NCBI GenBank assembly: GCA_007745835.1
Contig: CP036424.1
Location: forward strand, 3,521,968 to 3,585,967
Length of the DNA: 64,000 bases
Origin: Planctomycetes bacterium MalM25
Lineage (GTDB): Bacteria; Planctomycetota; Planctomycetia; Pirellulales; Lacipirellulaceae
Reading direction: 5' to 3'
Of this stretch, positions 27,561-47,274 are shown piece after piece. The number at the start of each line of letters is the position of its first letter. The stretch's first letter is position 1. The position numbers and the translations under genes were made by a program. Below the pieces are notes generated by a model that worked only from the letters and a program-made list of their open reading frames with translations, was not told where the DNA came from and did no database searches.

Positions 27561-27679
27561 CTCAGGACGACGCCTCATTTGCACTTAGCGACGCGGCAGG
27601 CCCACCTACAAGTCGCCCTCGAACCGGCCGGCAGAGCCACACTGAAGTCGCCGAGGTTGAGCTGACCGACGCGAGTTAC
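27561..27679 (+). repeat. Island repeat copy R1 (full-length, forward) within a 571-bp gap
   Basis: 119-bp unit from CTCAGGACGACGCCTCATTT (then GCACTTAGCGACG) to GAAGTCGCCGAGGTTGAGCT (then GACCGACGCGAGTTAC). The same unit occurs in reverse at 45302-45411 plus 46961-46965. No gene was recognised in the rest of 27552-28122. Confidence 0.85.
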
Positions 27680-28122
27680 CGGCGAGCCGATCTGCGGACG
27701 GATGGTCCATCCGCTGCACTTGGACTGCGTCGCAGCGTGCACGCTACCCGACTGCGATCGACTCGCCGTAGCGCGGGTCCAGCAGTGCGGCCTGGTATCG
27801 TGTGTGCGGACGGCTAGGGGAAGCGAGCAGCGGCCACTCCCGAGAGTTCGTGCGGTTCGATCGACCCCGTGGCAATCTAGTACGGCGGGCGATGTCGAAA
27901 TAATCGATCGTTCGGCGTGCGAACTGGGGTTTGAGAACGTCGGCTGGAGATGATCTGGGGCCCAGGACACGCGATTTGGCTACCGGATTGGCACGAGTCG
28001 GAGAAAGAAACGACTAAACCGAATCTCGGCTGGCGTCACTCACGACACGGAACGGCCCTACCGAATGTCCCTGCGAGAACGCTTGCGGTGGTCTTCGGGC
28101 TCTAGTCGAGAAGAGGTACGCA

Positions 28123-31100
28123 ATGCCGCGTCGCCACCGAGGGGGAACGCGCCGATCTGCCGCGTCGGTGTTGTTACGGTCCGAGTCACTTGAGCCTCGC
28201 TTGCTGCTCGCAGGCGACACGCTACAAGGCGACTTCAACGGGGATGGGCTGGTCAACGCCGCCGACTACTCCGTTTGGCGCGATACGCTCGGCGCCCAGG
28301 TCGTTCCCCTGTCGGGAGCCGACCACAGCGGTGACGGAAGGGTCGGATCGGAAGACTACGAGGCGTGGCGAGACAACTATGGGGCGCAGGCGAGCCACTC
28401 GCATGCGACGCACAGCCTCAGCCACCAAGCGGAAATCGATGCCGCGTTGTCGCTTGTGCCGGTCGGCGATGCGACGCATACGGTGGTTGCGTCGGGAAAC
28501 TGGAGAGACGATAGCGTCTGGTTAGGCGGCGTGAAGCCGACCGCTGGTGCGCGTGTTGTGGTCCCGTCGGGACTCACACTGACGGTGGACTCGGTCATCG
28601 CCGAGGATATCTTCTCACTCCGTCTTGATGGCACGCTCACCTTCGCCACAGACATCGATACGCAGCTCCGCGTCGAGACGCTCGTCAGCACCGCGGCGAG
28701 CCGGCTTGTGATGGGGACCAAGTACAGCCCTATCGAGCCACAGGTCACCGCGAGCATCGTCATCACCGACAACGGAGCGATTGACCGCGCGTACGACCCG
28801 ACGGCGCTGAGTCGTGGTCTGATTTTGATGGGCTCCACGGAGATTCATGGAGCGGTGAAAACGTCTTGGAGTGCTGTTCGTGCAGTCGATGCGCCGCGAG
28901 CCGGCGACACCACGCTCACGCTCGACGGGGCCCCAACCGGGTGGCGCGTCGGCGATCAGCTCGCCATCGCCGGGACAAAATACGAGGTAACCGACAACCC
29001 GTTCGACGAAGGCGAATCAGAGCTGGTGCTTCCCACGGGGGAGGAGACCGCGGTTATCTCCTTAATCAGCGGCAACACGGTAGTACTCACCGAGCCCCTC
29101 CAGTACGACCACACTCCCCCGGCAAGCGATCTAGCGATCCACGTCGCGAACACCACCCGCAACGCCTTCATCCGGTCTGAGGGCGAGGCGGTGGACCGCC
29201 GCGGCCACCTCATGCTCATGCACAACCGAGATGCGCACCTGGCGTACGCGGGCTTCTACCAGCTGGGCCGGACCGACAAATCAGTATTGCCCGACCCGGC
29301 TCAGCTCGACGACCAAGGACGCCTTATTCCCGGCACGGGGACGAACGTTCAGGGCCGCTACAGCGTGCATTTCCACAAGCACGGCGTCGCCGCCCGGCCG
29401 GCCGCGTCAACGGTCACTGGCAGCGCTCTGATCGGCACTCCCGGCTGGGGCTACGTGAACCACTCCAGCCACGTCGACTTCGTCGACAACGTCAGCTTCG
29501 ATGTATTCGGAGCCGGCTTCTATACAGAGGCTGGCGACGAGATCGGCTCTTTTGTCGATAACCTTGCGATCAAGTCCCACGGAACCGGCCTGGCGCCCAA
29601 CGCCTTCGAGGGAGAAGACTTCGGACACTCCGGAGATGGGTTCTGGTTCCAGGGCGCCAGCGGCCTGACGATCCGTGGCAACGTGGCCAGCGGAGCGACT
29701 GGATCAGGCATCATCATCTATGGGGTCGAATTCCCGGTAGATGACGAGCAGTCGGAAATCCCGTTCCTTGCGGAAAACCTACCTGACCCGTCGCTCGCCA
29801 ACGGCGCTGAGCAACTGCCGGTAGGTGTGACATGGCTGACCGAGGTGCGTGACAATGTCGCGTACTCATCAGGCACCGGTTTTCAGGTCTGGTATCACCG
29901 CACGCCCCTCACGACTGACTTCGCCACAATGCCCGAACAGCTCATCCATTTCGGGTGGGATCTGCCGAGCAGCGTGATCGAGAACACGACGGTTTGGAAC
30001 TCCGACACCGGCGTGAAGGCGCTCTACAACCTGGATGTACACTACAGGAATGTCCGTGTCGTTAACGACTCCAGCCTCGTAGGCAAGACCGGGTTCGACG
30101 CCAGCAACGTGTACAACCTGAGCAGTCATATTTACGAGAACCTCGACATCGAGGGATTTCAAGTGGGTGTCAACCCTTCGCCCAACGGCAGGGTCACGAT
30201 CGATGGAGGCCGGTTTGCCAACCGAACCGACATCTACCTAGGAGTTCCGAGGCAGGACCATCGACGCCTCGACATAATCGGAGATGTCCGCTTCGACAGA
30301 TTGGTGTCCGGCTCCCCCCTGTCCGTGGGCAGGCAGAACCTCGTTGCGTCGAACGACACACGGATATTCGAAGACTCGTCGCCCCACTTTTTCCTCTACT
30401 ACGACCAGATCATCCTGAATTACGGCGAGTACACCGGCCAACAGCTCTATCGAGAGGAGCAACAAGCGAGTGTCGTACCGATACCCCAGCAACCGGAGGT
30501 GGTCTTTCCAGAGGGCGCAAACAATCTGATCCCAAGCGAGTACATCGGACTGACGAACGCTCAGTTGCAATCGATCTACGGAGCGTCGTTTGGCGGTGTG
30601 GTTCCCCCGGACGGCGCGAACGACGCCGCGGCGGATGGGATCGTCGGACTCGTCGGTTCCCAATCGGTAGGGCCAACCGCGCTCCTTCCACAGATCTTGT
30701 TGGGTTCGGACGCAATCATCGCCGAGACGCTCGCCGGGGTCCGCAACGCCACGCCCTTTGCCACCAACTCGATCCCCGATCTGATGGCAACGACACGTGG
30801 TGAGGAGCAAAGACTCTCGGCTCACGCCGATCTCCGTAGCGTGTTTGTCGATGTCGATCACTCGACAGCTGAGTTGGCCTTCACTGCCGAAAGCAGCGAC
30901 CCATCGGTCGTCATGCCGCTCATCAATCCAGACGGCACAATTGACCTGTCGATTCCCTCGAACGCTTCCGGCGTTGCCGAGGTGCGGGTGGTCGCGATCG
31001 ACCCGGATGAATCGGAAGCGACAACGCGTTTCACGGTCCGCGTCGAGTCAATGGCGGCGCCGCACGCTCAGGCGCCAGCGACTCGCGTCGCTTTTTCACA

Positions 31101-31347
31101 GTTCAAAGGTGCGGAGGCTAGAGCTGCGCACGCGCCTTCGCGCAGAGAAGAGATAGCGTCTGCCTCCCGCTCACGCGAAGCAGACCTACTCCTGCTCGCT
31201 GCGATGAGCGAGAATACGCTGACGAGACATGGACATCTGGGAACCGCGGACGTCAGTGACGGTCGAGCGCCGGACCTCGATGCAACCGATGTGGCGATAG
31301 AACTCTTAGACACCACTGAGGGCTCGTTCCTGAGATATGCTTTCTGA
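28123..31347 (+). CDS. Secreted G8-domain / beta-helix protein with LEPR-XLL and dockerin
   Basis: 1074 residues. The LEPR-XLL export-type N-terminus (SLEPRLLLAG, residues about 22-31) is followed by a type I dockerin pair (DFNGDGLVNAADYSVWRDTL near 37 and HSGDGRVGSEDYEAWRDNYG near 68). A G8-like domain follows (GNWRDDSVWLGGVKPTAGAR, VVVPSGLTLTVDS near 125). Residues about 370-700 are a right-handed beta-helix region with RYSVHFHKHGVAA and SHVDFVDNVSFDVFGAGFYT, reminiscent of animal CEMIP/TMEM2 and other G8 proteins. Near residue 917 is a cadherin-like segment (AELAFTAESSDPSVVMPLIN). A carbohydrate-related surface role is inference. It is the only cargo gene between the island repeats that reads rightward. 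Confidence 0.75.
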   Translation: MPRRHRGGTRRSAASVLLRSESLEPRLLLAGDTLQGDFNGDGLVNAADYSVWRDTLGAQVVPLSGADHSGDGRVGSEDYEAWRDNYGAQASHSHATHSLSHQAEIDAALSLVPVGDATHTVVASGNWRDDSVWLGGVKPTAGARVVVPSGLTLTVDSVIAEDIFSLRLDGTLTFATDIDTQLRVETLVSTAASRLVMGTKYSPIEPQVTASIVITDNGAIDRAYDPTALSRGLILMGSTEIHGAVKTSWSAVRAVDAPRAGDTTLTLDGAPTGWRVGDQLAIAGTKYEVTDNPFDEGESELVLPTGEETAVISLISGNTVVLTEPLQYDHTPPASDLAIHVANTTRNAFIRSEGEAVDRRGHLMLMHNRDAHLAYAGFYQLGRTDKSVLPDPAQLDDQGRLIPGTGTNVQGRYSVHFHKHGVAARPAASTVTGSALIGTPGWGYVNHSSHVDFVDNVSFDVFGAGFYTEAGDEIGSFVDNLAIKSHGTGLAPNAFEGEDFGHSGDGFWFQGASGLTIRGNVASGATGSGIIIYGVEFPVDDEQSEIPFLAENLPDPSLANGAEQLPVGVTWLTEVRDNVAYSSGTGFQVWYHRTPLTTDFATMPEQLIHFGWDLPSSVIENTTVWNSDTGVKALYNLDVHYRNVRVVNDSSLVGKTGFDASNVYNLSSHIYENLDIEGFQVGVNPSPNGRVTIDGGRFANRTDIYLGVPRQDHRRLDIIGDVRFDRLVSGSPLSVGRQNLVASNDTRIFEDSSPHFFLYYDQIILNYGEYTGQQLYREEQQASVVPIPQQPEVVFPEGANNLIPSEYIGLTNAQLQSIYGASFGGVVPPDGANDAAADGIVGLVGSQSVGPTALLPQILLGSDAIIAETLAGVRNATPFATNSIPDLMATTRGEEQRLSAHADLRSVFVDVDHSTAELAFTAESSDPSVVMPLINPDGTIDLSIPSNASGVAEVRVVAIDPDESEATTRFTVRVESMAAPHAQAPATRVAFSQFKGAEARAAHAPSRREEIASASRSREADLLLLAAMSENTLTRHGHLGTADVSDGRAPDLDATDVAIELLDTTEGSFLRYAF

Positions 31348-31534
31348 GGCGGCCGAGACCGTAGTTCGCTTGTTTGCCAGAACGTGTCGTTGGCATTGGC
31401 TACCAAAAAGGTAGAGAGCGACAAACCTCCCTGTGAAGTCGAGCCGGGCTTGGCTCGTGGTGCTGCGAGCCGCCCAAACGGCTGTCGGATGGATTGACTT
31501 TGGTCGTCTGCTGTTTCCATTAACTCGCGTCGGA

Positions 31535-31643
31535 TGCCTCACCCGTTTGCAGATCGCGGTTCCGCGAACTCGCAGCGGTGCCTCAGCTCGGCCAAGACCT
31601 CTGCGCGTGCGGCACCTGGCGAACTGAGCGGTGCTGGTCCAAC
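31535..31643. repeat. Island repeat copy R2 (109 bp) in a 347-bp gap
   Basis: Runs from TGCCTCACCCGTTTGCAGAT to GCGGTGCTGGTCCAAC and is 107/109 identical to 32522-32630. It contains pairs such as GGTGCC/GGCACC and CTCAG/CTGAG that can form a hairpin. Preceded by TTAACTCGCGTCGG, a word shared with other island repeats. No gene in 31348-31694. Confidence 0.92.
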
Positions 31644-31694
31644 TTCGGCGAGTTACGAGCAGTAAGTCGGCTGCTCGACTGCCTTGTACGGGGC

Positions 31695-32267
31695 CTACAA
31701 GCGTCTACCCCGTACCATCAGGGCGCCGAGTAGCAGCAAGGCCGCCGCGCCCGGCTCGGGGACAATAGTGAAGGTTGCCTCATTATCAAGAAATGAGTGG
31801 GAGTAGTTGCCTGGGTTAAAGCCCAGAGATTCTGCGGTCGCGTTGTTCCATGTTGCCGTGGCGAATACGGATTCAGATGATTGATAGCCCGCTGGAACAG
31901 CGAAGAAGTCCCCGCGGGGGTTCTGGCCCGAGAAGCCGATGGTATCTCCTGTAATCGAGTCGGGGTCTAAAAACGTACTACCAAACGCTGGTAGCGGGTT
32001 AGAACCTTGCGCCCCGATGGTGTAAACCACAGCGTTTCCGCGAATGCCATCACCAATAGCAGCTCGATGGCTGGGATGATTAAATCCGCCGGAGATGCTG
32101 GAGTCGTTCGATAAAAAGTTGAAACCATTCAGATCGACGGAGCCAGAAATCGTCATGACGAAATCAGGACCCGACTGCTCACCGACAAAAGTAAGCGTGT
32201 CCGCCTGGGTGATTGAAGCGCCGGCAATTGAGATGGCGAACGCTAGTGTGATGCGAATTGTAGACAT
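31695..32267 (-). CDS. PEP-CTERM sorted secreted protein
   Basis: 190 residues. Signal peptide at residues 1-22 (ITLAFAISIAGASITQAD) and a C-terminal PEP-CTERM tripartite signal (VPEPGAAALLLLGALMVRGR): Pro-Glu-Pro, membrane span, Arg cluster. The middle is beta-rich (GPDFVMTISGSVDLNG) and not recognised. The tail directs export and processing by an exosortase, which is not in this window. ATG 32267 has AGGA upstream. It is bounded by the two 109-bp repeats R2 and R2b. Confidence 0.85.
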   Translation of the reverse strand: MSTIRITLAFAISIAGASITQADTLTFVGEQSGPDFVMTISGSVDLNGFNFLSNDSSISGGFNHPSHRAAIGDGIRGNAVVYTIGAQGSNPLPAFGSTFLDPDSITGDTIGFSGQNPRGDFFAVPAGYQSSESVFATATWNNATAESLGFNPGNYSHSFLDNEATFTIVPEPGAAALLLLGALMVRGRRL

Positions 32268-32521
32268 TTCTGATCCTGTTGTATGATTAGCACTACTCTT
32301 CTAGTTCAAGGAAGCGCGCGGATCTATCCGCGAATGACATATTGATTCCACGCTCGACGTGCCGCTCCATCTGGAAACGCCCCATGTCGAGATTCCAGAC
32401 CGGAAACCCGGTACTCACCTCATTATAGTCTGCACGAGTGGACAGCGTAACCTACAGTGGGTAGAGCCCGCGAGAGAAATGGCGTTCAAATCCGTGAAGG
32501 AGGGGCGTGACCCGCTGAGGT

Positions 32522-32630
32522 TGCCTCATCCGTTTGCAGATCGCGGTTCCGCGAACTCGCAGCGGTGCCTCAGCTCGGCCAAGACCTCTGCGCGTGCGGC
32601 ACCTGGCGAACTGAGCAGTGCTGGTCCAAC
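32522..32630. repeat. Island repeat copy R2b (109 bp) in a 416-bp gap
   Basis: Direct repeat of 31535-31643 differing at two positions (a C/T near the start and a G/A near the end). Located between the two PEP-CTERM genes. No gene in 32268-32683. Confidence 0.92.
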
Positions 32631-32683
32631 CGACGGGATCGAGCGGCGTACGCTTGCAGACGGGAGGGCTAGGCTTTGAGGCG

Positions 32684-33406
32684 CTAGCAAGCGGCCCTGT
32701 GCCGGCGTTCAAGAACGGCCGTTTGCGACGGAAGAGTTCTTCGGCTGCGCCGCTGCAAACTGAGCAGCCCGGCCAAGCCTAACAGTATCAGGCTAGTCGG
32801 CTCGGGGATCGCGGTGACTGTGAAGATGCCATTCGCATCGTCGGCCCCGAGCAGTCGCAGCGTGGCGGACGTGGTGTTCGGGGCATTGAAGTCCTGAGCG
32901 TCGAAGATCGGCAGGTCAAATGTCAGCGAGAGGCCGAAGAACTCGGTGGGTTCGATCCTGGGATTGAAGCCCAAACCGTAGGACGCTAGGCGTCCGTTGG
33001 AGGAGATCATTTGCCCGCCGACAAAGTCGGCTGGGCGTGCCGTGCCCCCGTTCGCATCGCTGATGAAGCCCTCCGTGAAAAAGCTCTGCGCCGATCCACC
33101 CGGGTTTAAGCCCGTACCCAGCCGGATGCCGACACCGAACCCGTCCAAGTTCGAATGCACCAGCGATACGTCTCCGGCAAAACGGATATTCACGCTCAGG
33201 CGGCTTCCATCATAGGGGACTCCGACTAGTTCGGGGATCGGGATTTGAGCGAACGAGTAAACATCCCCCGGGTCCCCGACATCAACCGTCAGATCGTAAT
33301 CGGTCTGCCCTACCGCCTTGGAGGTGAAGGCTGCCACGAGTGCCAGTACGGCTAACGCAAAGGCGTGGCTGGCGACGTTCTTGTTCTCGTTCCAACGACG
33401 GATCAT
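32684..33406 (-). CDS. PEP-CTERM sorted secreted protein
   Basis: 240 residues. Signal segment VASHAFALAVLALVAAFTSK, a beta-rich body (LSVNIRFAGDVSLVHSNLDG, LTFDLPIFDAQDFNAPNTTS), and the PEP-CTERM tail IPEPTSLILLGLAGLLSLQR. The tail has an unusual extension of about 20 residues after the Arg cluster, suggesting the original stop was lost or the end was altered by a junction. ATG 33406 is supported by GAGGAG upstream. Function unknown beyond sorting. Confidence 0.82.
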   Translation of the reverse strand: MIRRWNENKNVASHAFALAVLALVAAFTSKAVGQTDYDLTVDVGDPGDVYSFAQIPIPELVGVPYDGSRLSVNIRFAGDVSLVHSNLDGFGVGIRLGTGLNPGGSAQSFFTEGFISDANGGTARPADFVGGQMISSNGRLASYGLGFNPRIEPTEFFGLSLTFDLPIFDAQDFNAPNTTSATLRLLGADDANGIFTVTAIPEPTSLILLGLAGLLSLQRRSRRTLPSQTAVLERRHRAAC

Positions 33407-33562
33407 GGAGCAGCTCCTCGGATGCATAGGGTCTCGTCAATGGCCCAACAAGATAAACGTAGCGCAGAGCGGAATTGGGCACGCTAGAGCCTGGATTGTA
33501 GTCGCCTAGCTGGAGACCGCAACCAAACAGAGGTTGCCTCAGCCGACGCGGATTACGGCCTT

Positions 33563-33687
33563 GCCTAACTCGCGTCGGTGCCCGTCACCTCGGCAGATCG
33601 ACTCTGCGCGAAAGCGTGACCGACTCATCGTCCAGCGTGCGATTCCGAGTGCCTCAGAAGTCGCCGCGGTTGAGCTGACTTCTGCCG
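33563..33687. repeat. Island repeat copy R3 (partial units in both orientations) in a 302-bp gap
   Basis: GCCTAACTCGCGTCGGTGCC then CGTCACCTCGGCAG resembles the end of the unit in reverse; GAAGTCGCCGCGGTTGAGCT then GAC at 33658-33680 matches the unit end forward. The two half-units are about 75 bp apart and inverted. No gene in 33407-33708. Confidence 0.75.
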
Positions 33688-33708
33688 ATACGAAGACTCG
33701 ATGCCCCG

Positions 33709-35658
33709 TTACAAGTACGCTGGGGCAAACATCCAGACGACAACGAATCCGTAGGCCAGTATGCGACTACGCCAGGTAAGGCGGCGACAATACAGAGCGG
33801 CTAAGAGCGATACGAGCAAGCCGTAAGAGCCCGCGACCCATACTCCATCAGCGAGCGTGTCGATTCTTGCGTTAGCCTCGCCGAGCATCACTAGCGTCGC
33901 AACGAAGAGTGCCAAAACCAGCACACCCATGACGACCATGAACTCAAAGTAGGCCGGTGTCCACCACTTCGGTCGTTCATCACGGAGCTTGCTCGCAAAA
34001 GTCGTCCCGGCGAGGCATGGTGTCACGCACAGCACCACCGACATAAGCACGCCGACGAGCATGCCGCGGGGGATCTGGTATATGCCATCGTAGTAGATGC
34101 GGTAGGCCAGCGTATTCGCCAACTTATCGCGGGGCAGCGTTTCGACGCCTGGATATTCTCTCGTTAGTGCTTGCCGAGCCTCTTCGGCACGCTCAGGTTC
34201 GCCGAATGCCGCGTCGGCGAGCACCGTGATGGCGTCCCGCGCGTCGTTGTGCGAGTCGGCGACCGCCTCAAAGCCGAGATTGAACGCGAAGAAGCAGAAC
34301 GCCATAAATAACGACGCGACCAGCCCGAAAGAGAACGCTTCGCTGCCGGGCTTCGCGCGGGTCGTGACAGCGACCAGCAAGCCGGTGAGCATGATGATTA
34401 CTGGTATCAAGAGAACCGAAACGAGGCGTACCTCATCGGCGCTAAGCCCTTCGTTCATAAAAACAAACGATCGCCCTGCTGGCACCGGCGACGGCAAGGA
34501 TTCGTAGATGCTTAGCGGTGGGTTCTCGCGGATGTCTCCTTGAGTGTGGATCTTGCTCATGCACCATGCGAAGGCGATGCCAGCAACGATTCCAGTCAGA
34601 GCTGCGCCGACGGCGGATCGGAGATTAGCTTGCAGCACCTGCGTGACGGCCAAACCGACGGATGGCGAGCGTACCGAGACAGGTTCGCCACGCCGCCATC
34701 GCTCGAGGTCGTCGGCAAGAGCGGCAGCCGACGCATAGCGTTGGCTCGGGTCGCATTCGAGACATTTGAGGCACACCCGTTCGAGGGTGCGATCGACGCG
34801 GCGATTGTGTTCTCGTGGAGCAACGACCTCGCCCTTTAGGGCGCTAAGCAGCGTCTTGACCGGGGTCTCGGCCTGGTGTGGCGGCCTGCCCGTAAGCCCT
34901 TCGTACAGGATGGCGCCAATCGAATAGATGTCAGCCGCGGTGGTGATTTCCTTCCCGCCGGCGGCTTGTTCGGGCGGCATGTAGGCTGGCGTGCCCACGG
35001 CTGTACCGGTGTTGGTCAGGTCGCTGTCCAAAGCGATCTGTTTCGCGAGCCCCAGGTCGGAGACGAGCGGATGCCCCTCGTTGTCGAGCAGGATGTTGGC
35101 AGGCTTGAGGTCGCGGTGCAGCACACCACGTTGGTGAGCGTGGTGGATCGACCCGGCGATCGCCGCAACGACTCCGGCGAGATCGTTAGGGCGGTCGCCT
35201 AGCTCCGCTAGTTTGCCGGCTAGCGAACCCCCTTCGATGAGCTTCATTGAGAAGAAGTGGTGGCCATCATGGCTTCCGACTTCGTAGATCGGCACAATGC
35301 CAGGGTGGTCGAGCTTCGCGGCTGCTTCGGCTTCCAGATAAAACCGCTTGACGTCGCTCTCCGAGGCGAACTGTCCACTGAGGATCATCTTCAGCGCGAC
35401 CAGACGATTTAAGCTCTTCTGTCGGGCTTGGTAGACAACTCCCATCCCCCCACGAGCGATCTCGTCGAGGATTTCATAATCGCCAAACCCACCGGTCAGC
35501 CGGTACTCCCCTGAGAGCGGAACGTCCTGCTGGCTGCTCGACAGATCAACCGTGGGCTGACCGTCGCTGTTCGCTTTAGCTTGCGACCGACCTGTCTTGC
35601 CAGACCTGTCTGGGTTCGGCGATGAGGGAAGAAGCGCTGTTGGATCGGTGTCGCCCAT
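33709..35658 (-). CDS. Hanks-type Ser/Thr protein kinase with polytopic membrane C-terminus
   Basis: 649 residues. Kinase domain about residues 60-325 with glycine loop IARGGMGVVYQA, catalytic Lys in VALKMI, loop VLHRDLKPANILLDNEG, VSDLGLAK (DLG instead of DFG, common in bacterial kinases), and GTPAYMPPEQ. From about 346 there are seven or so membrane spans (VGAALTGIVAGIAFAWCM, LVSVLLIPVIIMLTGLLVAV, LVASLFMAFCFFAFNLGF, and others) with an extracytoplasmic loop between the first two. No PASTA or WD repeats. ATG 35658 (MGDTDPTALLPSS) is preferred to the ORF start at 35796, which reads through non-coding sequence. Substrate unknown. Confidence 0.92.
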   Translation of the reverse strand: MGDTDPTALLPSSPNPDRSGKTGRSQAKANSDGQPTVDLSSSQQDVPLSGEYRLTGGFGDYEILDEIARGGMGVVYQARQKSLNRLVALKMILSGQFASESDVKRFYLEAEAAAKLDHPGIVPIYEVGSHDGHHFFSMKLIEGGSLAGKLAELGDRPNDLAGVVAAIAGSIHHAHQRGVLHRDLKPANILLDNEGHPLVSDLGLAKQIALDSDLTNTGTAVGTPAYMPPEQAAGGKEITTAADIYSIGAILYEGLTGRPPHQAETPVKTLLSALKGEVVAPREHNRRVDRTLERVCLKCLECDPSQRYASAAALADDLERWRRGEPVSVRSPSVGLAVTQVLQANLRSAVGAALTGIVAGIAFAWCMSKIHTQGDIRENPPLSIYESLPSPVPAGRSFVFMNEGLSADEVRLVSVLLIPVIIMLTGLLVAVTTRAKPGSEAFSFGLVASLFMAFCFFAFNLGFEAVADSHNDARDAITVLADAAFGEPERAEEARQALTREYPGVETLPRDKLANTLAYRIYYDGIYQIPRGMLVGVLMSVVLCVTPCLAGTTFASKLRDERPKWWTPAYFEFMVVMGVLVLALFVATLVMLGEANARIDTLADGVWVAGSYGLLVSLLAALYCRRLTWRSRILAYGFVVVWMFAPAYL

Positions 35659-35822
35659 TGGCTGATTGTAGCAGGCCAAACCAGTCGCCACTGTAGGAAG
35701 ACAAGTTGCCCCAGACTGGCGACAGCTTGAAGAGCCTGCTGTCGGTTGCGACGCCCGTTCGACACAACGGTTGCCAACAAGCCGCCGCGGTTGCATCCCC
35801 GAGGCGGCTTTCGGCTAGGCCG

Positions 35823-35987: not shown

Positions 35988-35990
35988 CAA

Positions 35991-36332: not shown

Positions 36333-36398
36333 GCAAATGCTTTGCTTGGTGCCGAGTGGGGTGAGCCATGTCTCGCTTGCATGTACCTTACAGCATCC

Positions 36399-36439
36399 CG
36401 TCGCCTCAACGCGACCTTGCTAAGTACAAATGAGTGACC
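36399..36439. repeat. Island repeat fragment R4'
   Basis: CGTCGCCTCAACGCGACCTT then GCTAAGTACAAATGAGTGACC, matching the reverse-unit end (GCTAAGTGCAAATGAGGCGTC in R1 reverse). Confidence 0.65.
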
Positions 36440-36456
36440 CTCCGTGACTTGCTAGC

Positions 36457-39400: not shown

Positions 39401-42400
39401 GCATCGTCATTGGCGCCGGGGAGGCCGGCGTCAAAATCAGGTCCGATGACCACCGTATGCACCTCGGCGATCCCGTCGCCGCCTGACGTGGCGAAGGCGA
39501 TTGGGACTCCACCAACGTCGATGGGACCAATCATTGCGGCCGTTTCGCTCTCGGGCGCGATTGTTGACAGCTGAACCCCGGGCTCCTCGCCATCTTCCGC
39601 GCCACGGAGGGTCGGCGGGTTCGTCGGCCGCGAGACGCTCTCGAAGTAGACCCGCCCGTCGTAGAAGAGCACTTCTTCGTAGCCCGCTGCGACGAGTTCC
39701 TGCACCTCGGCGACCGCGAAGTCGTGCAGGTTGGCGTACGTCTCGCCGTATTGAGCGCGGTTGCGGGCTACCAGCGCGTCCCACGCCGCTTCGTCCGCGC
39801 CGGCCGGACGTTGCAGGTTGCTGATCAGATCCCAGTTGATCGACTGGTTCGCAAAGAGCGGGTCGTCGATGCTCGACGCGTGCAGATCGAACTCGATCTC
39901 GGCGGGGTCGCTCGGCGAACGGTAGTAGAGGTCGATCCGGCCTGACGCGCCCGGCGGTAGCACCGTAAGCCCAGGCGTCGGGCCGTTCGCGAGCACCGTG
40001 ATCGCCCCGTCTCCGTAGACGTCGCTGCTGTCGAAGCTCCTGTGAATCGTGCCGTCGCTCGCCGCCAGGGTGAGCCACGGCAGCGCCGCGGTACGCGAGC
40101 CCTCGTTGTGGTAGTGGATTGAAATCTCCGACAGGCGGTCGTTTCGCATCACCTCGGGGATATCAAGCCAGTACCGCAGTTCCGGCGGCCCGGCAGCAGG
40201 CGCCGGCGAGACGAGTGTCACGCCGCCCGGCAACCGGTCGGCCTCCACCCCGCCGTCGAGCACGACGAGGTCGTAGCTGCCGATGGGCAGGCTGCTCATG
40301 TCGAACGTTGCGAACGTTCGCTGAGCATTGTTCACGATCACCGACAAGCTGTCCGCCGCCGCTCCGCTGCCCGTGGCGACCAGTCGATAGCTAAGGTCGT
40401 CGCTGAGGTTCGTCCCGCGGACATCCAAGACCTGCCGGCTGCTGCGTGTGACGGTGGAGGTAGCAACCTCGGTCAGGCTCGGCGCAGCACGCTCGGCCGC
40501 GATCTGTACCGGTGTGCCGTCGGCGGGCAGGTCATTCGGGAAGACCGTGACGTACCAGACCGTGGCCGGCGCGCTGGGTATGTCGCTCTCGACAAGCGGG
40601 GCAACCGCCGACACATCCGCTGCGCCCAGCTGGCGGTGACGATGGGTGTAATCGAACCGCGTCGGCAAGAAACCGGCGCCCAAGTACAGCTCGGTTACGC
40701 CGGCGGTCAACAGGTCGGCCGTGACTTCGATGTCTCGATCTTGCGTGCCATCGAGCCGGAACCACAGCGGCTCGGCTTCGGTCGCGAACGTTGCGTCGAT
40801 CGTCGGGCCGTCGATCGTGAGCACCGGCACGTCGAGCGTTACCGGCTGATCGCTGAGCGCGGCGTTCAGCTCGGGGTCTTCCGACTCTTCGACTAGATCT
40901 AGCCGCGCGTTGGTCTGCACTCGCCAAGAGTACTCGCCCAGCTCACGCGCCGGGACACGTACCGTGGCGGAGAAGGTGCGTGACTCACCGGGCGCCAGCG
41001 GGGCGCCGTCGCCGACCAGCACATCTTCGATCAGCAAGCTGTCTTCCACTACGACGTCGACCACCGTGGAGCCGTCCAGCGGATTAGCGGCCGGATCGCT
41101 GACTTGTTCGACCGTGACGCCGGTGAGCGAGATGGCGTCGCGCCAGGAGCCGCTTGCCGCGACGGAACCGGCGTTGGTCACGGTCCACTCGATAGTCGCT
41201 TCGTCGCCCGCGGTGACTGTCGTGGGGCCGGTGACGGCCGACACCACCAGATCGGGCGAGCCGACCGGCGCGTCGCCGACGGTGACCACGACGGCGCCGT
41301 CGGTATGGCGAGAGGTTAGGCCGTCGGGCGTTGTGATCGACCCGAACTCGGTGCCGCCTCGCGACGCGAAGCTCACGGTCGTGAATTGGTCGGCGGCGAC
41401 CGGCGTAAATCCCGCGCCGGTCGAGACGATGAGCTCACCGGCAAGCGTTGCTTCGCCGACGATCTCGAGCCGGCCCGACGCCATATCGGTGGGCCGACCG
41501 GCAAGCTCGACGCGTGTCTTAGCTTCGGCCACCTGAGTGAACGCACCGCTGACCGTCAGGTTGCTCCCGGCGGCCAGGTCGATCTCGCCGAACACGCCCC
41601 GCTCGGGCGTTGAGAACCGCCACAGCCGTTTCTCTCTGTTGAGCACCCAGACGTCGCCCGTGGCGTTATCACGGGCGATGCCGGAGAAGTTGTTGACCGT
41701 ATTGCGGGCGCGCGGACCGAGGTGTTCTAGGTCGTAATCAGCGACCCACTCGCCGGTGGGCGTCAGCTCGCGGATGATCGATTCGCGATCGACAACCACC
41801 AGCAGGTTGCCATTCGTCTCGTTGACTTCGACGCCGCCAACTACGAACGATGAGATCGGCGAGGGCGCCCCGGCCCCGCTAAGGCCGAAGGAGGTCACCA
41901 ACGAGCCGTCCGATGGATCGACTTCGTATAGCCGATTGTCGGACGACATGATGAACAGCGTGTCGCGGATCGGGTGGTGTGCGAGGCCGGGTTGGCCACG
42001 CGGCAGGTCGTCAAAGGAAACGCTCGCCAGCTCGGCGCCGGTGGCGCGGTCGAGCGCGAGGACTTGCGGCGGGGCGTCGTCGCCGTAGGTCATTAGCAGC
42101 GTGCCGGCGGGCACGGTGACGCCACCGATCGAGACGGGCGCCGACACCACGTCGAGCGCCGTTAACGCCGAGATGCCCGAGCCGCTGGTCGGCTCGGTCG
42201 GACGCGGGATCGTTCGCACCGTGCGGCCGTCGGCGTCGATCTCACGGATGATCGACTCGTCGCGTGACAGCAGCAGAACGTTCCCCGTTGTTGGGTCGAC
42301 GGCGATGCCTAGCTGGTCGTTCAAACCGGAGACCAGGGCGTTCTGCATCTCGGCGTTGACGCGATCGACGCCGTTGGTCAGGTCGCCGATGGTCGTGAAG

Positions 42401-43677
42401 TCGCGTCCGCCTTCCAGGCGGATCACCCCCGCGTTGGCGGCCAGCGTGTCGATGCCCGGCATCGCCGCGTTGGGGCCTTCCAGCACGATCGTGGCAAAGT
42501 TGTTGACGATGTTCCGGTCAGGATCGAGCAGCAGCGTTGCGTTGTCGGCGACGCGGTACGTCCCGTCGTGGAGAAAGTCTCCCTGGAACGGCTGACGCTC
42601 GATCTGCAGCGTGTTGATGTCCAGGCTCAACGTGCCCGAGCGAACGTCGGCCGTGCCCGTGTTGTTTAGGAAGGTGCTGGCGCGATCGGAGAAGATTTGG
42701 CTCGTGCCGTCGCCACCGCTTTTGCGAATCGTGCCCAGGTTATGAAAAATCGTTGTGAACACTGCCGACGTCCCGGGCGACAGGATGAACTCGCCGTTGT
42801 CTCGGAAGTCGTACGTGCCGCGGTTGATAAACTCTTGATGCCGCGTCAGCGTGACGGTTGACGCGCTCTCGTGAACGAAGGAGCCGTTATTCGTCACCGC
42901 ACCGTTTATGGAAAGCGACGCGTCGGTGTCGATCTGCACGAAGCCATCGTTGATCAGGTCGCCTGCCGTACCGCTCACCCAGTGCAACAGGCCCTCGGCG
43001 AAGTCGAGCGAACCACGGTTTCGCGGGTCCGCGCTATCGAGCGATCCAGTCCACTCGACCCGGCCGGCCCCCACGCCGACGCTGTCGCCTCTGAAGTCGT
43101 GGTCCCCCGACAGTTGCAGAACGCCCCCTGACGCAACCTCGAAACGCGCTGCGTCATGGTCGCCGCTAACGAGAGTCAATCGACCGGCATCGACATCGAT
43201 TACAGCGTTGGCCTCGCCGGTGTAATCGAGGGAGAGCGTCGCGTCAGCTAGCGACCGCAGCACGCCCCGGTTTTCGACGGCGCCGCTGCCGCTCAGATCA
43301 CCCGCCAACGCCAGCGTGCCCGTGACATCGATCACTCCGCTGTAAGTCGATGTGCCACCAACCGACAACTGGCCCGCTCCACCGAGCACACGCAAGTTCT
43401 CGGCGCCCGCGATCGTCCCCACTTGTCGCGCGTCACGGACGGTGACGGTCACCAAGCCCGACACGTTCAGGGTGACGTCATCATCAACCGTTGGAACCTG
43501 CCCGGTCGACCAGTTGGTCGGATCGTCCCAGAAACCGTCACCGCCAACCCAGGAACTGGCGGCTAGCGCCAACCGCGGCTCGAGCACTTCGGCCGGATGA
43601 AGCTTTGGTCGGCGACGTGACGCACGCTTAAGACGACCTACGCCGCGGCTTTGCGGCTTCGCATAGCGGAAATACAT
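36457..43677 (-). CDS. Giant secreted protein with embedded caspase-like domain, LEPR-XLL and dockerin
   Basis: 2406 residues. N-terminal EVLEPRLALAA (residues about 30-40) is a LEPR-XLL export motif. It is followed by a WVGGDGFWDDPTNWSTGQVP element and beta-rich repeats to about 450. Residues 470-700 look like an NHL/propeller region (VLLLSRDESIIREIDADG repeated in variants). A CARDB-like segment follows near 820-960 (TVTAGDEATIEWTVTNAGSV). Residues about 1400-1630 form a caspase (C14-like) fold: LPGANDDAQSFARLV, catalytic His1481 in VYWASHGH, Cys1541 in FIADTCYSG. Downstream are SFDPNEKVGPGG (near 1735), an Fn3-like segment (near 1920), an SdrD-B-like segment (IRGVSYVDVNNNGQIEETEL near 2020) and a C-terminal dockerin pair (DYNLDGLVDREDHAAW, GNGDGRIDAADYTVWRD near 2240-2290). 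Start ATG 43677; no clear Shine-Dalgarno. Confidence 0.85.
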   Translation of the reverse strand: MYFRYAKPQSRGVGRLKRASRRRPKLHPAEVLEPRLALAASSWVGGDGFWDDPTNWSTGQVPTVDDDVTLNVSGLVTVTVRDARQVGTIAGAENLRVLGGAGQLSVGGTSTYSGVIDVTGTLALAGDLSGSGAVENRGVLRSLADATLSLDYTGEANAVIDVDAGRLTLVSGDHDAARFEVASGGVLQLSGDHDFRGDSVGVGAGRVEWTGSLDSADPRNRGSLDFAEGLLHWVSGTAGDLINDGFVQIDTDASLSINGAVTNNGSFVHESASTVTLTRHQEFINRGTYDFRDNGEFILSPGTSAVFTTIFHNLGTIRKSGGDGTSQIFSDRASTFLNNTGTADVRSGTLSLDINTLQIERQPFQGDFLHDGTYRVADNATLLLDPDRNIVNNFATIVLEGPNAAMPGIDTLAANAGVIRLEGGRDFTTIGDLTNGVDRVNAEMQNALVSGLNDQLGIAVDPTTGNVLLLSRDESIIREIDADGRTVRTIPRPTEPTSGSGISALTALDVVSAPVSIGGVTVPAGTLLMTYGDDAPPQVLALDRATGAELASVSFDDLPRGQPGLAHHPIRDTLFIMSSDNRLYEVDPSDGSLVTSFGLSGAGAPSPISSFVVGGVEVNETNGNLLVVVDRESIIRELTPTGEWVADYDLEHLGPRARNTVNNFSGIARDNATGDVWVLNREKRLWRFSTPERGVFGEIDLAAGSNLTVSGAFTQVAEAKTRVELAGRPTDMASGRLEIVGEATLAGELIVSTGAGFTPVAADQFTTVSFASRGGTEFGSITTPDGLTSRHTDGAVVVTVGDAPVGSPDLVVSAVTGPTTVTAGDEATIEWTVTNAGSVAASGSWRDAISLTGVTVEQVSDPAANPLDGSTVVDVVVEDSLLIEDVLVGDGAPLAPGESRTFSATVRVPARELGEYSWRVQTNARLDLVEESEDPELNAALSDQPVTLDVPVLTIDGPTIDATFATEAEPLWFRLDGTQDRDIEVTADLLTAGVTELYLGAGFLPTRFDYTHRHRQLGAADVSAVAPLVESDIPSAPATVWYVTVFPNDLPADGTPVQIAAERAAPSLTEVATSTVTRSSRQVLDVRGTNLSDDLSYRLVATGSGAAADSLSVIVNNAQRTFATFDMSSLPIGSYDLVVLDGGVEADRLPGGVTLVSPAPAAGPPELRYWLDIPEVMRNDRLSEISIHYHNEGSRTAALPWLTLAASDGTIHRSFDSSDVYGDGAITVLANGPTPGLTVLPPGASGRIDLYYRSPSDPAEIEFDLHASSIDDPLFANQSINWDLISNLQRPAGADEAAWDALVARNRAQYGETYANLHDFAVAEVQELVAAGYEEVLFYDGRVYFESVSRPTNPPTLRGAEDGEEPGVQLSTIAPESETAAMIGPIDVGGVPIAFATSGGDGIAEVHTVVIGPDFDAGLPGANDDAQSFARLVRTGANYAGPKPVLVDGRDSTPENALNAIRDAAANVDEDDTLFVYWASHGHCRFDNNETTVVDAERGIYRPSDVYFRLGGNDESRVDPAQINEVISGVRGRTAFIADTCYSGEVLSQIDADVRIGSARTRPVADDPSFGRFLQAELKKNPNGIGLVEASQKAADAYVANYLNGASRSGQEAIQGFVDATKGNNYAWPTDSTGNQVDSLSVHVQDTFFKAEGLSLVDEQARKRGARAASRAAVTIPVIDAGDRADEPVAGLSFKAKKPNKEDGSDKDDSLVGQTEGQLLAFEPVFEFRGDVRNSFDPNEKVGPGGVAGGFVRSGDDLAFTVFFENDPDKATLPAQTVTITDTLDEDLDLSTFELGDIFVGDVQIKVPAGRFAYSVTESLAIAGIDLVVSVEAELDFATRTVTWSFDSIDLDTGLPTLDALAGFLLVNDATRRGEGSVSYRVATPEGLVTGTQVTNSAEIVFDTNAPLITNTTVHTIDESAPISGPAVLAPTRTDTTFAVSWAGDDGAGSGVESFDVFVSTDGGDFELLLDDTTDTTTQFTGEVGKTYAFSTVASDAIGFREAKTPFAETATTVVVPTDGGEIRGVSYVDVNNNGQIEETELRLLGVQIELYRDGGLVATTFSDGDGQWRFTDLAAGTYTVVKVQPTLYFGGQETVGSLGAESVADNQFELAMAADDSAVDYLFAERGLLPWYIGRSMYLASTPGDVWEGVDLSVTDQWLELSPEMPEVTAWLGYDAGAGDAQVELYDDRMRLIDPNIATEDAASWIAPAGQTHYLRLSGSHRSVALALAFDRQTGDYNLDGLVDREDHAAWLSAYGATVAPNSGADGNGDGRIDAADYTVWRDASALQEEGTIPPNPLVSSPSESIGNAANEPQAATIAFSTAIPHMPESDLMRRRSLPIPRNASEVADLDRAFALLLLGSESSLANSPVWKRQPISDTEPIDVEPVDESADGIESSFSADRPLL

Positions 43678-43819: not shown

Positions 43820-44977
43820 TCAGTAGGTACGTATCAGCCCAAGGTTGATGCCCTGCAGCCAAACCGTCGACCCGGGCGATTGAAACGCCGGGTCGGTGGC
43901 GCCCGCCGGAGGCGGACCGGGATCTAGCAGTCGCCCATCGACACGACGATCGATCAGCACGCCGGTCCGCAAGGCGTCGGTCAGGTAGAGAAGCGTGTAG
44001 CCGACGCGTACTTCCGTGCTCGCACCAATTCGTCTCCGTATATCGACACGCAATTCGGGCAGCAGCGCGAAGCGGTTGTCCCGGCGCTTGCCCGCATTGG
44101 TCGTTTGGGTCAGGAGCCCACCCACTTCGACAAACGGCGCGATTGTCGGGACGGTCGTCGTCGTCGATCCGGCAATCAGCGACTCCCGGCGATTGCCGCC
44201 TACAGCGACCTTGCCGGTCACCGTCACCCCCCACGGACCGCGGCTGTCTTCGAGCACTAACCCGAGGTCCAAACCGTGGAACTCGTTCGTAGCACCAAGC
44301 GAGTCCCGCACGTCGAAGGTCGTTCCCTGCGCGACCGCTCCCCCGGTCGATTGAACGACCGATTGCGTCGAAACATTCAACGACTCTTCGAACCGGAAGA
44401 AACGATACCCGATCAACCCCGCCACGCCACTTCCACACTCGCCTAGGAGATCGACGCGGCATGCTAGCGATGCCGAGTAAATATCGTAGTCAAGGTCGAT
44501 CGCGACTGACCCATCGACAACATCTCCCAGAGTTGGATCGTCGAACGCAATCAGCTCGGCGTCCTCACCAAGACTGGCGGGATCGGTGTTGAGGAACGGA
44601 CGCATAAGGCCTGGATTGCCGTCGGACGACGCCGCGTAGTCGTCATCGATGCCTACCCAGAAAAACTCGCTCGAAAGCGAGACGTATTCTCCGAGGCGTC
44701 GAGATAATCCCAAACGCATGCCAGAGCCGTTCGCCGACTCCGCCGCCGACCCACCGAACAGAGATGTCGTCGACGGCTCGCCAAGCACTCCGGCCTGTGG
44801 CCGGCTTGTCCCGGCGGGGCTACTAGTGAGCAGCGTGGGCGAGGGGCCACCGCCGACCCACCACTGCAGGTAGTCAGCGGACACGCCCCAAGTCGGATCG
44901 CAACACGACGCGGATGGACCGTCGGCCCAAGCGCCGCCCGCTGCAACAGCTATCACTGCGATCGAGAGACCTCGCAT
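43820..44977 (-). CDS. BBP7-type outer-membrane beta-barrel protein
   Basis: 385 residues. Signal peptide MRGLSIAVIAVAAGGAWAD. The mature start WGVSADYLQWWVGGGPSPTL and the repeated aromatic-ended strands (SSEFFWVGIDDDY, FFRFEESLNVSTQS, FHGLDLGLVLEDSRGPWGV, EVRVGYTLLYLTDALR) match the putative beta-barrel porin-7 family found in planctomycetes. ATG 44977 has GGGAAGCAG upstream; a TTG eight codons earlier is possible. Likely a surface pore or autotransporter-like barrel; function not known. It follows the giant protein gene by position (143 bp) on the same strand. Confidence 0.82.
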   Translation of the reverse strand: MRGLSIAVIAVAAGGAWADGPSASCCDPTWGVSADYLQWWVGGGPSPTLLTSSPAGTSRPQAGVLGEPSTTSLFGGSAAESANGSGMRLGLSRRLGEYVSLSSEFFWVGIDDDYAASSDGNPGLMRPFLNTDPASLGEDAELIAFDDPTLGDVVDGSVAIDLDYDIYSASLACRVDLLGECGSGVAGLIGYRFFRFEESLNVSTQSVVQSTGGAVAQGTTFDVRDSLGATNEFHGLDLGLVLEDSRGPWGVTVTGKVAVGGNRRESLIAGSTTTTVPTIAPFVEVGGLLTQTTNAGKRRDNRFALLPELRVDIRRRIGASTEVRVGYTLLYLTDALRTGVLIDRRVDGRLLDPGPPPAGATDPAFQSPGSTVWLQGINLGLIRTY

Positions 44978-45301
44978 CTGCTTCCCTGCCCCTTCTCGCA
45001 ACTATCCGTGCGACTCCTCGAGTCGTTGCAGTCCCTGCAAACAACTAGAGGAGGGTTCGTCCAAACAGGTGCAGCAAAGACGTTGTTATCGGCAGAAGTA
45101 CTTCTACAACAGTGGCGAAGCCTGGCGGGGATGCGTCGAGTTTGCGGGGCGATAGCGCCTGACGGTATTGGACTTTGGTCGTTAAGGGCTGCGGGCAACC
45201 GTGGGCATCAAAGAAGCTCGCCGGATATTCATCTGCTGTTGTCTCGTCCGCTTGAATTGCGTCGGTTGGACCAGTTTCGGCGACTTAGCGACCCGCTCAA
45301 T

Positions 45302-45411
45302 CCGCGTCGGTCAGCTCAACCTCGGCGACTTCGGGACGGCCCGGCGTACCCGTTCGAGGGCAACTTGCAGGCGACTCGCCCGAACGCTTTCGTGCGTAAG
45401 GTGGCGTCGTC
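45302..45411 (-). repeat. Island repeat copy R5 (full-length, reverse), interrupted by IS; 410-bp gap
   Basis: Reverse complement of unit R1: CCGCGTCGGTCAGCTCAACC then TCGGCGACTTC to GGTGGCGTCGTC. The missing last five bases (CTGAG) are at 46961-46965 beyond the IS. A further related word, TTTCGGCGACTTAGCGACC, lies at 45274-45292. No gene in 45002-45411. Confidence 0.85.
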
Positions 45412-46949
45412 GAATGGCACGTAGATCTACGCAAGTCGTTTAGCCATTTGACGTTTGAGCACGTTCCTTGGTTTGCACATGGGGACGTGTTTCTTGGGTC
45501 TTCGCTTTCGCTGGCGTGGTTCGAAGCGGTCGGGTCGGTCGCCGACACGGTGGGTGGCAATGGCGTCGAGCAGGTGGTCGTAGAGGGTTCGTCGGAAGAC
45601 GGCTCCGCGATGCGATAGCAACTCGATCACCGGATGGAACGCTTCGAGCGTTTGAACGGCGCCCTTGAAGCTGATCGAGCGGGGCTCGATCGAATGCTTG
45701 TGGGCCGCTTGGGCCATCACGGTGCGGATCAGGTTGTAGGCGAGCAGGTGGGCCCAGATCTCCTTGCGCACCAGTTCGGGCGTCTTGCAACGCAGGATGT
45801 CCATCGGCAGGGTCTCTTTGAGCGACCGCAGGTCGAGTTCGCAGTTCCAACGAGCGCGATACAACTCGGCGAGGTCTTGCTTGGTGTACTCCTCGGAATC
45901 CAACAAGGTCGAGACGACAATCAGGCTCCGGCTGCGGAAGCCATCTTGCTCAACGAGGACGCGCGTCTCACGAACCGTGATCTGGCCGGGCAGCTTCTTC
46001 CAGTTGCCCCACTTCATCGAGCGGATAGCGGGCTTGGTCCACTCAACGAGGTGATCGCCTTTCGCCAAGCGTATCCCACGCCGGAAGTCGGCCTTCCGGC
46101 AGTGGTGCAACCGCGTGACCATATCGACGCCGCGTTGCTTCAAGAGATGGATCTCTTTCCACGCACACAGGTACCGATCGGCAAGCAGGATATCCCCCGC
46201 AAGCAGCCGTCCCCACATCTTGCGGAGCATGCCCAACTCGCTGTGCCCCTTGCCCGAGTTGCTGCAGATGTCCAAGTCGAGCACGGCTCCGCAAGAGAGC
46301 GAGAAGAACGCCGCGATCCGCGCGATCGGGAAGCCGATCCCCGGGGCCTGCTGCGGGGGCTGCGGATAAGCGTGCTGGTTCTCCGGCGTGTCGGGCATCG
46401 ACACGGTCGAGCCGTCGTAGATCAGCACGCGACGCCGCTTCCACAACCACTCGGGCTTCACGCCCTTGTCCAACGCGGCGGCCGTTGCGCGGGCCGTGGT
46501 CGCGAAGAACTCCTCGGGCAATCGCTTCCTCGCTTGGCAGTAAGCGCTCGTCTGGGCGGAGCAAGGCTTCAAGCCCTGCGACACCCGGTGGGCGATCAGC
46601 CGGGCGACCGCCGCTCGGCACGAGTGGTCGGCGCTGAGCACCTGCCACAAGAAGACCCGCAGCGTCATCAGCGGCGTGTAGATCCGATCGAGCCAGTCGT
46701 GCTGGATCGTGTCGAGTGCTCGCGTGAGCGTCTCGTTCGTGAGCACTTCACCGAAGGGCAACCCCTCCGACTGCAAGAACTGCTGGCGCAGAAAGCTGAT
46801 CTGGCTCCGAACGCGTCCGTTGTTAATACTTCGCACCGCGAGGGCCTCCTTGCCAACGATGGGGATGTGACAACTCCCATCTAGGCGAGCGAGGCCCTTC
46901 TTCGTAGGTCAATTCGCAACAACGACTTGCGGAGATCTACGTGCCATTC
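45412..46949 (-). mobile_element. IS4-family insertion sequence, intact
   Basis: 1538 bp. Terminal inverted repeats GAATGGCACGTAGATCTACG then CAAGTCGTT (left) and the same with one mismatch (right), 28 of 29 matching. Flanked by an 11-bp target duplication GTGGCGTCGTC at 45401-45411 and 46950-46960. One transposase ORF fills it. Confidence 0.93.
45427..46836 (-). CDS. IS4-family transposase
   Basis: 469 residues, full length. DDE residues: first Asp in RRVLIYDGSTVSMPDTPEN near residue 140, second in LLAGDILLADRYLCAWKE near 218, and the C1 signature Y-(2)-R-(3)-E-(6)-K in YRARWNCELDLRSLKETLPM near 330, which defines the IS4 family. The stop codon lies inside the left inverted repeat. No frameshift or internal stop, so it may still be active. 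Confidence 0.93.
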   Translation of the reverse strand: MRSINNGRVRSQISFLRQQFLQSEGLPFGEVLTNETLTRALDTIQHDWLDRIYTPLMTLRVFLWQVLSADHSCRAAVARLIAHRVSQGLKPCSAQTSAYCQARKRLPEEFFATTARATAAALDKGVKPEWLWKRRRVLIYDGSTVSMPDTPENQHAYPQPPQQAPGIGFPIARIAAFFSLSCGAVLDLDICSNSGKGHSELGMLRKMWGRLLAGDILLADRYLCAWKEIHLLKQRGVDMVTRLHHCRKADFRRGIRLAKGDHLVEWTKPAIRSMKWGNWKKLPGQITVRETRVLVEQDGFRSRSLIVVSTLLDSEEYTKQDLAELYRARWNCELDLRSLKETLPMDILRCKTPELVRKEIWAHLLAYNLIRTVMAQAAHKHSIEPRSISFKGAVQTLEAFHPVIELLSHRGAVFRRTLYDHLLDAIATHRVGDRPDRFEPRQRKRRPKKHVPMCKPRNVLKRQMAKRLA

Positions 46950-47274
46950 GTGGCGTCGTCCTGAGCACGCTAGCCCACCTCACGCCCCGGCCCGGCTCGC
47001 AACACCAGACCGGGGCCAAACGCCCATATTTTCAAAGAACACCCGGCCTCGGGCCGGATCGATGATCCCGAAGCTGCTTGCCACGCGGGGTGACTGGGCG
47101 TGTCGCAATCCAATCAAGGGCCGTCGGTTGATGCTTGGCCGCCGCGTCGCTGGACTCGCCAGTCAGCCCAGTAACAAAAATGCCAAAAAGTGGCTGTTCG
47201 GGGCGGCAAGACGAAGCCTTAATCGGCCAGGGAGAACCTGAGAAATCGCCAGGGGCCTGTTCGGCCTAGCCGCC
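46950..47274. other. 325-bp gap with GC-rich hairpins, no supported gene
   Basis: Contains the IS target copy, the tail of repeat R5 and small inverted repeats such as CCCGGCC/GGCCGG. A 104-codon ORF spans it from inside the IS, but its composition is not convincing. Confidence 0.55.

Follow-up and report, generated by a model that had tools for sequence, protein, structure and literature searches.

The shuffling of single-gene cassettes is classically the work of integrons, and two further arrangements are instructive for genes that move without an enzyme of their own: in mobile insertion cassettes such as MIC231, passenger genes lie between ends like those of a transposon but no transposase is present, and engineered recombinase-mediated cassette exchange uses heterospecific inverted sites whose arms are related and whose spacers differ, which would prevent inversion and permit exchange. 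Here we describe a family of intergenic repeats in a 64,000-nucleotide stretch of the Planctomycetes bacterium MalM25 chromosome (the window; G000:C1:3521968-3585967, where G and a number denote a genome compared, G000 being the window's own, and L and a number a stretch fetched for comparison), which are probably the ends of small gene-carrying mobile elements that we call A/C cassettes. In the excerpts consulted of their published account, the dif modules of Acinetobacter plasmids are gene units between inversely oriented pdif sites served by XerC/XerD, each site having two arms and a short 6-bp spacer, and they form arrays (PMC13141974); insertion sequences (ISs) of the IS1202 family are reported, in a source likewise consulted in excerpt, to target pdif-type sites (PMC10132070). 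Repetitive extragenic palindromic elements (REPs) are described, in the excerpted source, in regions between convergent genes (PMC3733652).

A first-pass annotation of the window had noted pieces of one or two related repeats in seven intergenic gaps, and all seven do contain repeat sequence. Of the two 20-mers it quoted, GACGACGCCTCATTTGCACT occurs exactly once (at 27566) and GTCGCCGAGGTTGAGCTGAC is found at 27647, at 33660 with one mismatch and, in reverse, at 45310; the copies at the two ends of the array are inverted, as it stated (27557-27712 versus 45260-45411, 83% over 69 nt). Alignment of the window copies with others from the same chromosome separates three kinds rather than one or two: A (27557 and 45260), B (31521 and 32513, which are 94% alike), and C (33527, 35779, and 36400). 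The outer parts of A and C have in common an inner motif, approximately CTAAGTRCAAAKGW, and each end type has a fixed 7-nt core of its own (GGCGTCG in A, GTGACCC in C). Outside the core lies a loosely conserved WCCTGRGC of about 8 nt, beyond which conservation mostly falls to background; inward, conserved sequence reaches 110-165 bp in many copies, not in all (L113 and L114 are exceptions). No nhmmer match to models of A, B, or C reached E<0.05 in 240 kb of control sequence from the same genome (12 stretches, each of 20 kb), and the repeats are therefore far from chance occurrences and unevenly spread in the genome; Rfam contained no relevant match for them. They are not specific to the island in the window, as had been proposed, because G000 (4.72 Mb in one contig) carries copies at many further places (11, 6, and 10 matches by DNA search with the A, B, and C queries, respectively) and relatives carry copies too.

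The clearest signal is the way in which the two end types are paired. Position-weight models (PWMs) of the ends, applied with a threshold of 15 to 61 loci, found 91 ends (51 C and 40 A), and the best score in the 240-kb control was 7.6. Neighboring A and C ends faced outward in 31 of 32 pairs, against a chance expectation of one in four, with the single pair that breaks this orientation in L161, and the outward-facing ends enclose one or more genes. Two of the loci, L133 and L167, overlap, and an end was counted twice. At a looser threshold, six extra pairs appear in relatives (G002, G018, G020 with two, G040, and G047), which are kept outside these counts. The standard element would thus consist of an A-type end, one or few genes, and an inverted C-type end.

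To describe the cargo we compiled 34 elements from eight genomes, comprising 30 outward PWM pairs (the window left out) and four added by hand that have weaker or variant ends (L038, L133, L151, and L154). Enclosed cargo spans 0.5-12 kb and the median element is 1.14 kb long; 24 of the 34 are shorter than 1.6 kb, and these mostly hold one complete open reading frame (ORF), with several in L160. GC content lies below that of the flanks in all 24 small elements (mean 0.548 vs. 0.652) and in 31 of the 34, and the longest complete ORF covers a mean of 0.76 of the small elements compared to 0.53 of random windows. In an earlier set of 27 elements the largest ORF ran from C to A in 19 and from A to C in eight. 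Mostly, the small elements have no recombinase aboard, and passenger genes generally do not include a transposase (the exceptions, L128 and L154, have likely inserted ISs). Predicted functions are mixed: a GNAT acetyltransferase in L113 and another between two C ends of the L125 array, a HEAT repeat protein in L114, PEP-CTERM proteins in L034 (FGE-sulfatase) and L039 (VWA), an immunity-like Imm35 protein in L160, GH43 and PKD/dockerin proteins in L166 and, by eye, a TPR-like ORF (L155), a phosphatase-like ORF (L133), copper-efflux-like genes (L030), and a sigma factor with a kinase (L038). The acetyltransferases and the Imm35-type protein, together with the copper-efflux genes and sigma factor recognized by eye, do not fit a restriction to surface and secreted proteins, which had been part of the initial idea. 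A Pfam search found no family for many of the cargo proteins submitted to it, and a blastp comparison of 18 small-cassette proteins with one another returned no match at 1e-3. Proteins of the DUF1559 type recur in the cassettes of L035, L152, and L159 and also occur outside cassettes, so the cargo is not wholly unrelated.

One comparison with relatives is informative about movement. The L114 cassette lies between two convergent genes, 12 nt past the stop codon of one, which is desaturase-like, and 20 nt from that of the other. Homologues of these flanking genes (55-78% identity) are adjacent, convergent, and free of any cassette in G001, G002, G003, and G007, where the gap between their aligned ends is about 30-90 nt; in G026, which belongs to another family, they are neighbors about 220 nt apart. 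None of the empty sites in the relatives gave A/C-like scores. The cassette was either inserted in its own lineage or lost in the others, and insertion is the simpler account. By eye, the empty sites of G001 and G007 (L206 and L208) have other long inverted repeats in the gap. Across 27 pairs no target-site duplication was detected, the best z at any of the offsets tried being 2.9. According to crude ORF calls, flanking genes converge at 16 of 26 elements and diverge at three. Complementarity between left and right outer flanks, as might follow from insertion into terminators, reached at best z 3.2 in 180 settings, and z -0.2 in a shift-tolerant version. Near A/C elements, a separate family of intergenic repeats of about 109 bp is often found (L028:7398, L032:9604, L034:11908, L036:6573, L038:8144, and L039:11758), with one copy beside the Y1 transposase locus L115.

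The exact C motif occurs in eight stretches among 84,980 species genomes, a collection that may leave out the window's own, and all eight are from Botrimarina, Aeoliella, and Adhaeretor, which are genera of the Lacipirellulaceae, a family of planctomycetes that live in water. The C repeat was present in seven of 39 genomes searched, G000 included. With up to two mismatches, the C motif was found in 12 of 43 genomes of the family, and a reversed control pattern occurred twice in all; the A motif, searched in the same way, is less specific (34 of 43 genomes, with many control matches). Viral contigs gave zero and one motif matches. The one viral match, L149:3084-3102, is an exact A-end motif. 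Among open-access titles on Lacipirellulaceae cassettes, planctomycete REPs, and integrons or attC sites, to which this survey was confined to the exclusion of subscription papers, none describes such a system.

Taken together, outward pairs of unlike ends around foreign-looking genes and an empty site in relatives make it probable that the repeats bound a family of mobile cassettes, and in essence uphold the idea of gene capture or shuffling that the first-pass annotation put forward. Several observations weigh against this conclusion. Only 62 of the 91 ends are in outward pairs, and the remaining 29 are array members or lone ends; the latter are seen in L121, L122, L129, L132, L139, L157, L158, L162, L169, L226, and L228-L232 and in the window (A end 45403), and some, such as that in L135, are near contig ends. 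For the end model, ends recognized by pattern served as the training set, and six C ends with variant inner arms, met as partners of A ends, were added in retraining; the non-control loci, moreover, were mostly fetched for holding matches. Training and choice of loci inflate the counts, but they favor no orientation. Three elements (L035, L123, and L128) do not have GC content below their flanks, and ORF coverage is ordinary in several individual elements. The empty-site evidence comes from one locus, given that in a second comparison the right neighbor was not conserved, making it uninformative. Neither an enzyme with a clear tie to the cassettes nor an excision product was found. Finally, the array in the window requires extra steps to explain its B repeats, a truncated end, and a lone A end.

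That array sits in a larger element: 30-bp direct repeats, one next to a tyrosine recombinase gene and the other next to a D5-type primase gene, mark an integrative island at 25387-49971 (Table 1). The left A end, whose outer core (27568-27574) reads CGACGCC on the forward strand, forms an outward pair with the C end at 35934, and between them are the G8 gene, two PEP-CTERM genes, and the kinase gene, along with two B copies and the truncated C end. A weak reverse match to the inner part of an A end is present at 33647-33700 (nhmmer E 0.0022). The giant gene and its neighbor run up to the right A end, which is interrupted by an IS and for which no C partner was found; this IS4-family element has duplicated 10 bp of the A core (TGGCGTCGTC, at 45402-45411 and 46951-46960). 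The picture of single-gene units separated by repeats holds mainly at other loci, and in the window the only clean case is 35965-36440, the A end of which has a variant inner arm and a PWM score below threshold, and which contains one ORF (35991-36332, reverse strand, 113 aa) without a family match. A congener has the same plan as the window at L123, in the order A, gene, B, gene, C, which suggests that B joins one cargo unit to the next. Arrays of this kind could arise when cassettes insert side by side and some of their ends are later lost or recombined, and B-type repeats between genes may then be the joints that such insertions leave. Elements with ends similar to those of the window IS4 adjoin TGGWCCA motifs of these repeats at L130, L158, and L190, and an IS with the ends of the window element has a different target in L154. 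Elsewhere in the window, positions 26933-27198 (the start of an SRAP gene) are 91% identical over 266 nt to L035:3263-3520, about 4 kb from another cassette; an inverted repeat of 34 nt with a 16-nt loop lies directly downstream of the primase gene (47275-47358); and a separate 93-bp intergenic repeat family has copies at 16949-17041, 19024-19114, and 21260-21353.

Table 1. Features of the island and its repeat array, in window coordinates
Feature	Coordinates	Strand	Basis
Direct repeat, 30 bp exact, island left end	25387-25416	+	sequence repeat
Island tyrosine recombinase; no action on A/C ends demonstrated	25425-26558	-	Pfam PF00589
A-type end, left array boundary	27553-27714	-	nhmmer E 5.2e-44, PWM 43.2
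Cargo: G8/CEMIP beta-helix secreted protein	28123-31347	+	Pfam
B-type repeat, probable joint between cargo genes	31519-31655	+	nhmmer, own-genome copies
Cargo: PEP-CTERM-like protein	31695-32267	-	NCBIfam matches below curated cut-offs; Pfam none
B-type repeat, probable joint, second copy	32507-32639	+	nhmmer, likeness to first B copy
Cargo: PEP-CTERM protein	32684-33427	-	Pfam PF07589
C-type end, truncated	33528-33616	+	nhmmer E 1.6e-18
Cargo: Ser/Thr protein kinase	33709-35796	-	Pfam PF00069
C-type end, core GTGACCC 35928-35934, outward partner of A 27568	35782-35949	+	nhmmer, PWM
Small A/C cassette as read	35965-36440		A core 35965-35971, C core 36434-36440
Cargo: giant 2406-aa protein, DUF7619, SdrD-B, CARDB, dockerin-like	36457-43677	-	Pfam
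Cargo: ORF without NCBIfam match	43820-45001	-	NCBIfam
A-type end, core GGCGTCG 45403-45409, right boundary	45260-45411	+	nhmmer E 8.3e-38
IS4-family insertion sequence, in A core	45412-46950	-	transposase 45427-46836
Direct repeat, 30 bp exact, island right end	49942-49971	+	sequence repeat

A cassette would move as a unit, mobilized in trans by an enzyme encoded elsewhere. A fixed core of equal length at both ends, inner arms, a weak outer arm, and the absence of a target duplication are more readily explained by a site-specific recombinase than by a DDE transposase, and the mover would more likely be a tyrosine-type recombinase acting at the core; we regard this identification as tentative, at somewhat less than an even chance. 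We surveyed proteins encoded within 6 kb of ends (top 25 clusters). A tyrosine recombinase recurs at only two loci, the window and L114, where a homologue of the window enzyme is 3.5 kb from the cassette. At E<=1e-20, homologues of the window recombinase are present in 18 of 39 genomes, including six of the seven with the C repeat (not G007; the window's own genome is counted) versus 12 of the 32 others, and the homologues in relatives are at most 39% identical to it. With too many paralogues, this enzyme is a lead rather than a link. A gene trio near ends in three genomes was considered as a recombinase operon and set aside, its proteins being DUF6268 and unassigned; A/C ends also lie within a few kb of DUF6268 genes at L154, L157, and L161, a recurrence over three genomes that may reflect a common hot spot. 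A more specific version, which we find rather doubtful, is natural cassette exchange, in which a single recombinase would serve the whole chromosome and act on inverted, heterospecific sites of two kinds, alike in their arms but not in their 7-nt cores. If so, A-gene-C units would be swapped or inserted without inversion, and single foreign genes would spread through a bacterial family with no enzyme on the cassettes. Because the ends are fixed, a hunt for the enzyme can be put directly to the test.

The most serious alternative is that A/C elements are moved by DDE transposition. The motif common to both end types behaves like a terminal inverted repeat, unlike ends around passengers that mostly have no transposase can be accommodated, and the 6 kb around ends repeatedly contain DDE transposases of two IS types, the first at four loci of G013 (L128, L129, L130, and L163) and the IS4 type at L130, L154, and L158. 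Set against this, a target-site duplication is missing from the 27 pairs, and the IS4 type, with ends and a duplication of its own, reads as an insertion into cassettes. We consider DDE transposition possible but not favored, with odds well below even.

Single-strand transposition, in which the pairs would be oversized units moved by an HUH/Y1 transposase, resembling REPINs (paired REP sequences), is unlikely. It would account for the absence of a target duplication and for the position between convergent genes, as reported for REPs in the excerpted source (PMC3733652). Six Y1 matches are present in G000, one of them with matches to the ends of the 93-bp repeat family on either side (at 637 kb; L118 1567-1606 and 2113-2141), a family that is probably the miniature element of that enzyme, and in G003 the sole Y1 match (C2:656773) and a C end (C2:659084) are about 2 kb apart. 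Yet none of the six Y1 loci of G000 has an A/C end scoring above 13, and the repeats show neither excess folding in seven of eight tests nor covariation between arms.

The same structural evidence bears on a still less probable reading, namely, that these are degenerate integron cassettes scattered by IntI. The cargo of single low-GC ORFs resembles integron cassettes, and IntI (TIGR02249) exceeds its cut-off in nine of 43 genomes of the family, including the cassette holders G003, G007, and G020; an IntI fragment in G003 (C7:55937-56314, under the cut-off) is about 3.3 kb from the C end at C7:59617, and the IntI regions L190, L191, L194, and L195 contain short stretches resembling inner portions of A, B, and C. 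However, no IntI passes the cut-off in G000, G002, and G013, all of which hold cassettes, and 14 regions around IntI or IntI-like matches contain no A/C end (best score 12.2). In L191:12052-17224, around the IntI gene of G007, there are two kinds of repeat that we take to be attC-like from their TAAC..GTTA pattern, and these differ from A/C ends. Folding as single-stranded DNA compared to shuffled sequences gave z from -0.4 to +1.7 in seven of eight tests, with one strand of a B copy weakly better (-1.9), and covariation between arms within copies was absent from 31 C and 17 A sites (the A sites were scored in a register one base off, and a shift-tolerant version agreed). The folds, the arms, and the 14 IntI regions all argue against an attC-like interpretation, which the first-pass annotation had suggested testing. 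Two structures were also examined and rejected: a hairpin at the outer site, striking in one copy (L130), showed no covariation over 48 sites, and palindromic units with a 7-nt core, proposed to form a chain in the inner repeat parts, were no more common than in shuffles in five window copies. Least credible are passive regulatory or terminator repeats accumulated beside foreign genes, which would suit a position 3' of genes and in convergent gaps, but not 31 of 32 pairs facing outward around one or few genes, nor the absence of the entire unit from the same site in relatives.

Paired unlike ends around single foreign-looking genes point to an undescribed way of moving genes. A second cassette system, dispersed over chromosomes in the Planctomycetota, with unlike ends and no enzyme aboard, would add a new path by which genes are captured, and it would account for part of the foreign gene load of the family.

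How A/C cassettes stand relative to described systems can be summarized as follows. Tn7-like elements have TnsA/B/C genes, TGT..ACA ends, and a 5-bp duplication; for A/C cassettes no duplication was seen and no TGT..ACA is evident at the conserved ends, with Tns genes outside the search. REPs and the mosaic elements and REPINs built from them (BIMEs, bacterial interspersed mosaic elements) similarly form inverted pairs in intergenic space 3' of genes, but A/C pairs enclose 0.5-12 kb of cargo; their ends are absent at the six G000 Y1 loci, where accordingly no cognate REP-associated tyrosine transposase (RAYT) flanked by A/C ends was seen, Y1 loci of relatives being outside this check. Mobile insertion cassettes share with A/C cassettes passenger genes without a transposase, and differ from them in that the latter have two distinct ends and no target duplication; a resident IS with A/C ends was not seen in the loci examined, a check that did not extend to whole genomes. 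Integron cassettes are likewise mostly single low-GC ORFs of mixed function that form arrays, but have one attC rather than two unlike ends, and A/C ends give no hairpin signal and G000 no IntI over the cut-off. Engineered cassette exchange uses two inverted sites with related arms and unlike cores, as seen here, whereas A/C cassettes are natural and chromosomal and exchange is our proposal. The Acinetobacter dif module is the closest working analogue: on the evidence of its excerpted accounts, it resembles A/C cassettes in the inversely oriented pair of sites around a unit (here in 31 of 32 A/C pairs) and in the ISs aimed at its sites (here the IS4-family element in an A core). A/C cassettes are nonetheless not a member of that group, since arms and spacer differ: the spacer of a pdif site is 6 bp long and its arms are those of XerC/XerD, whereas A/C ends have a 7-nt core and, by eye, different arms, and they come as two chromosomal types, each with its own fixed core and, in many copies, long inward conservation.

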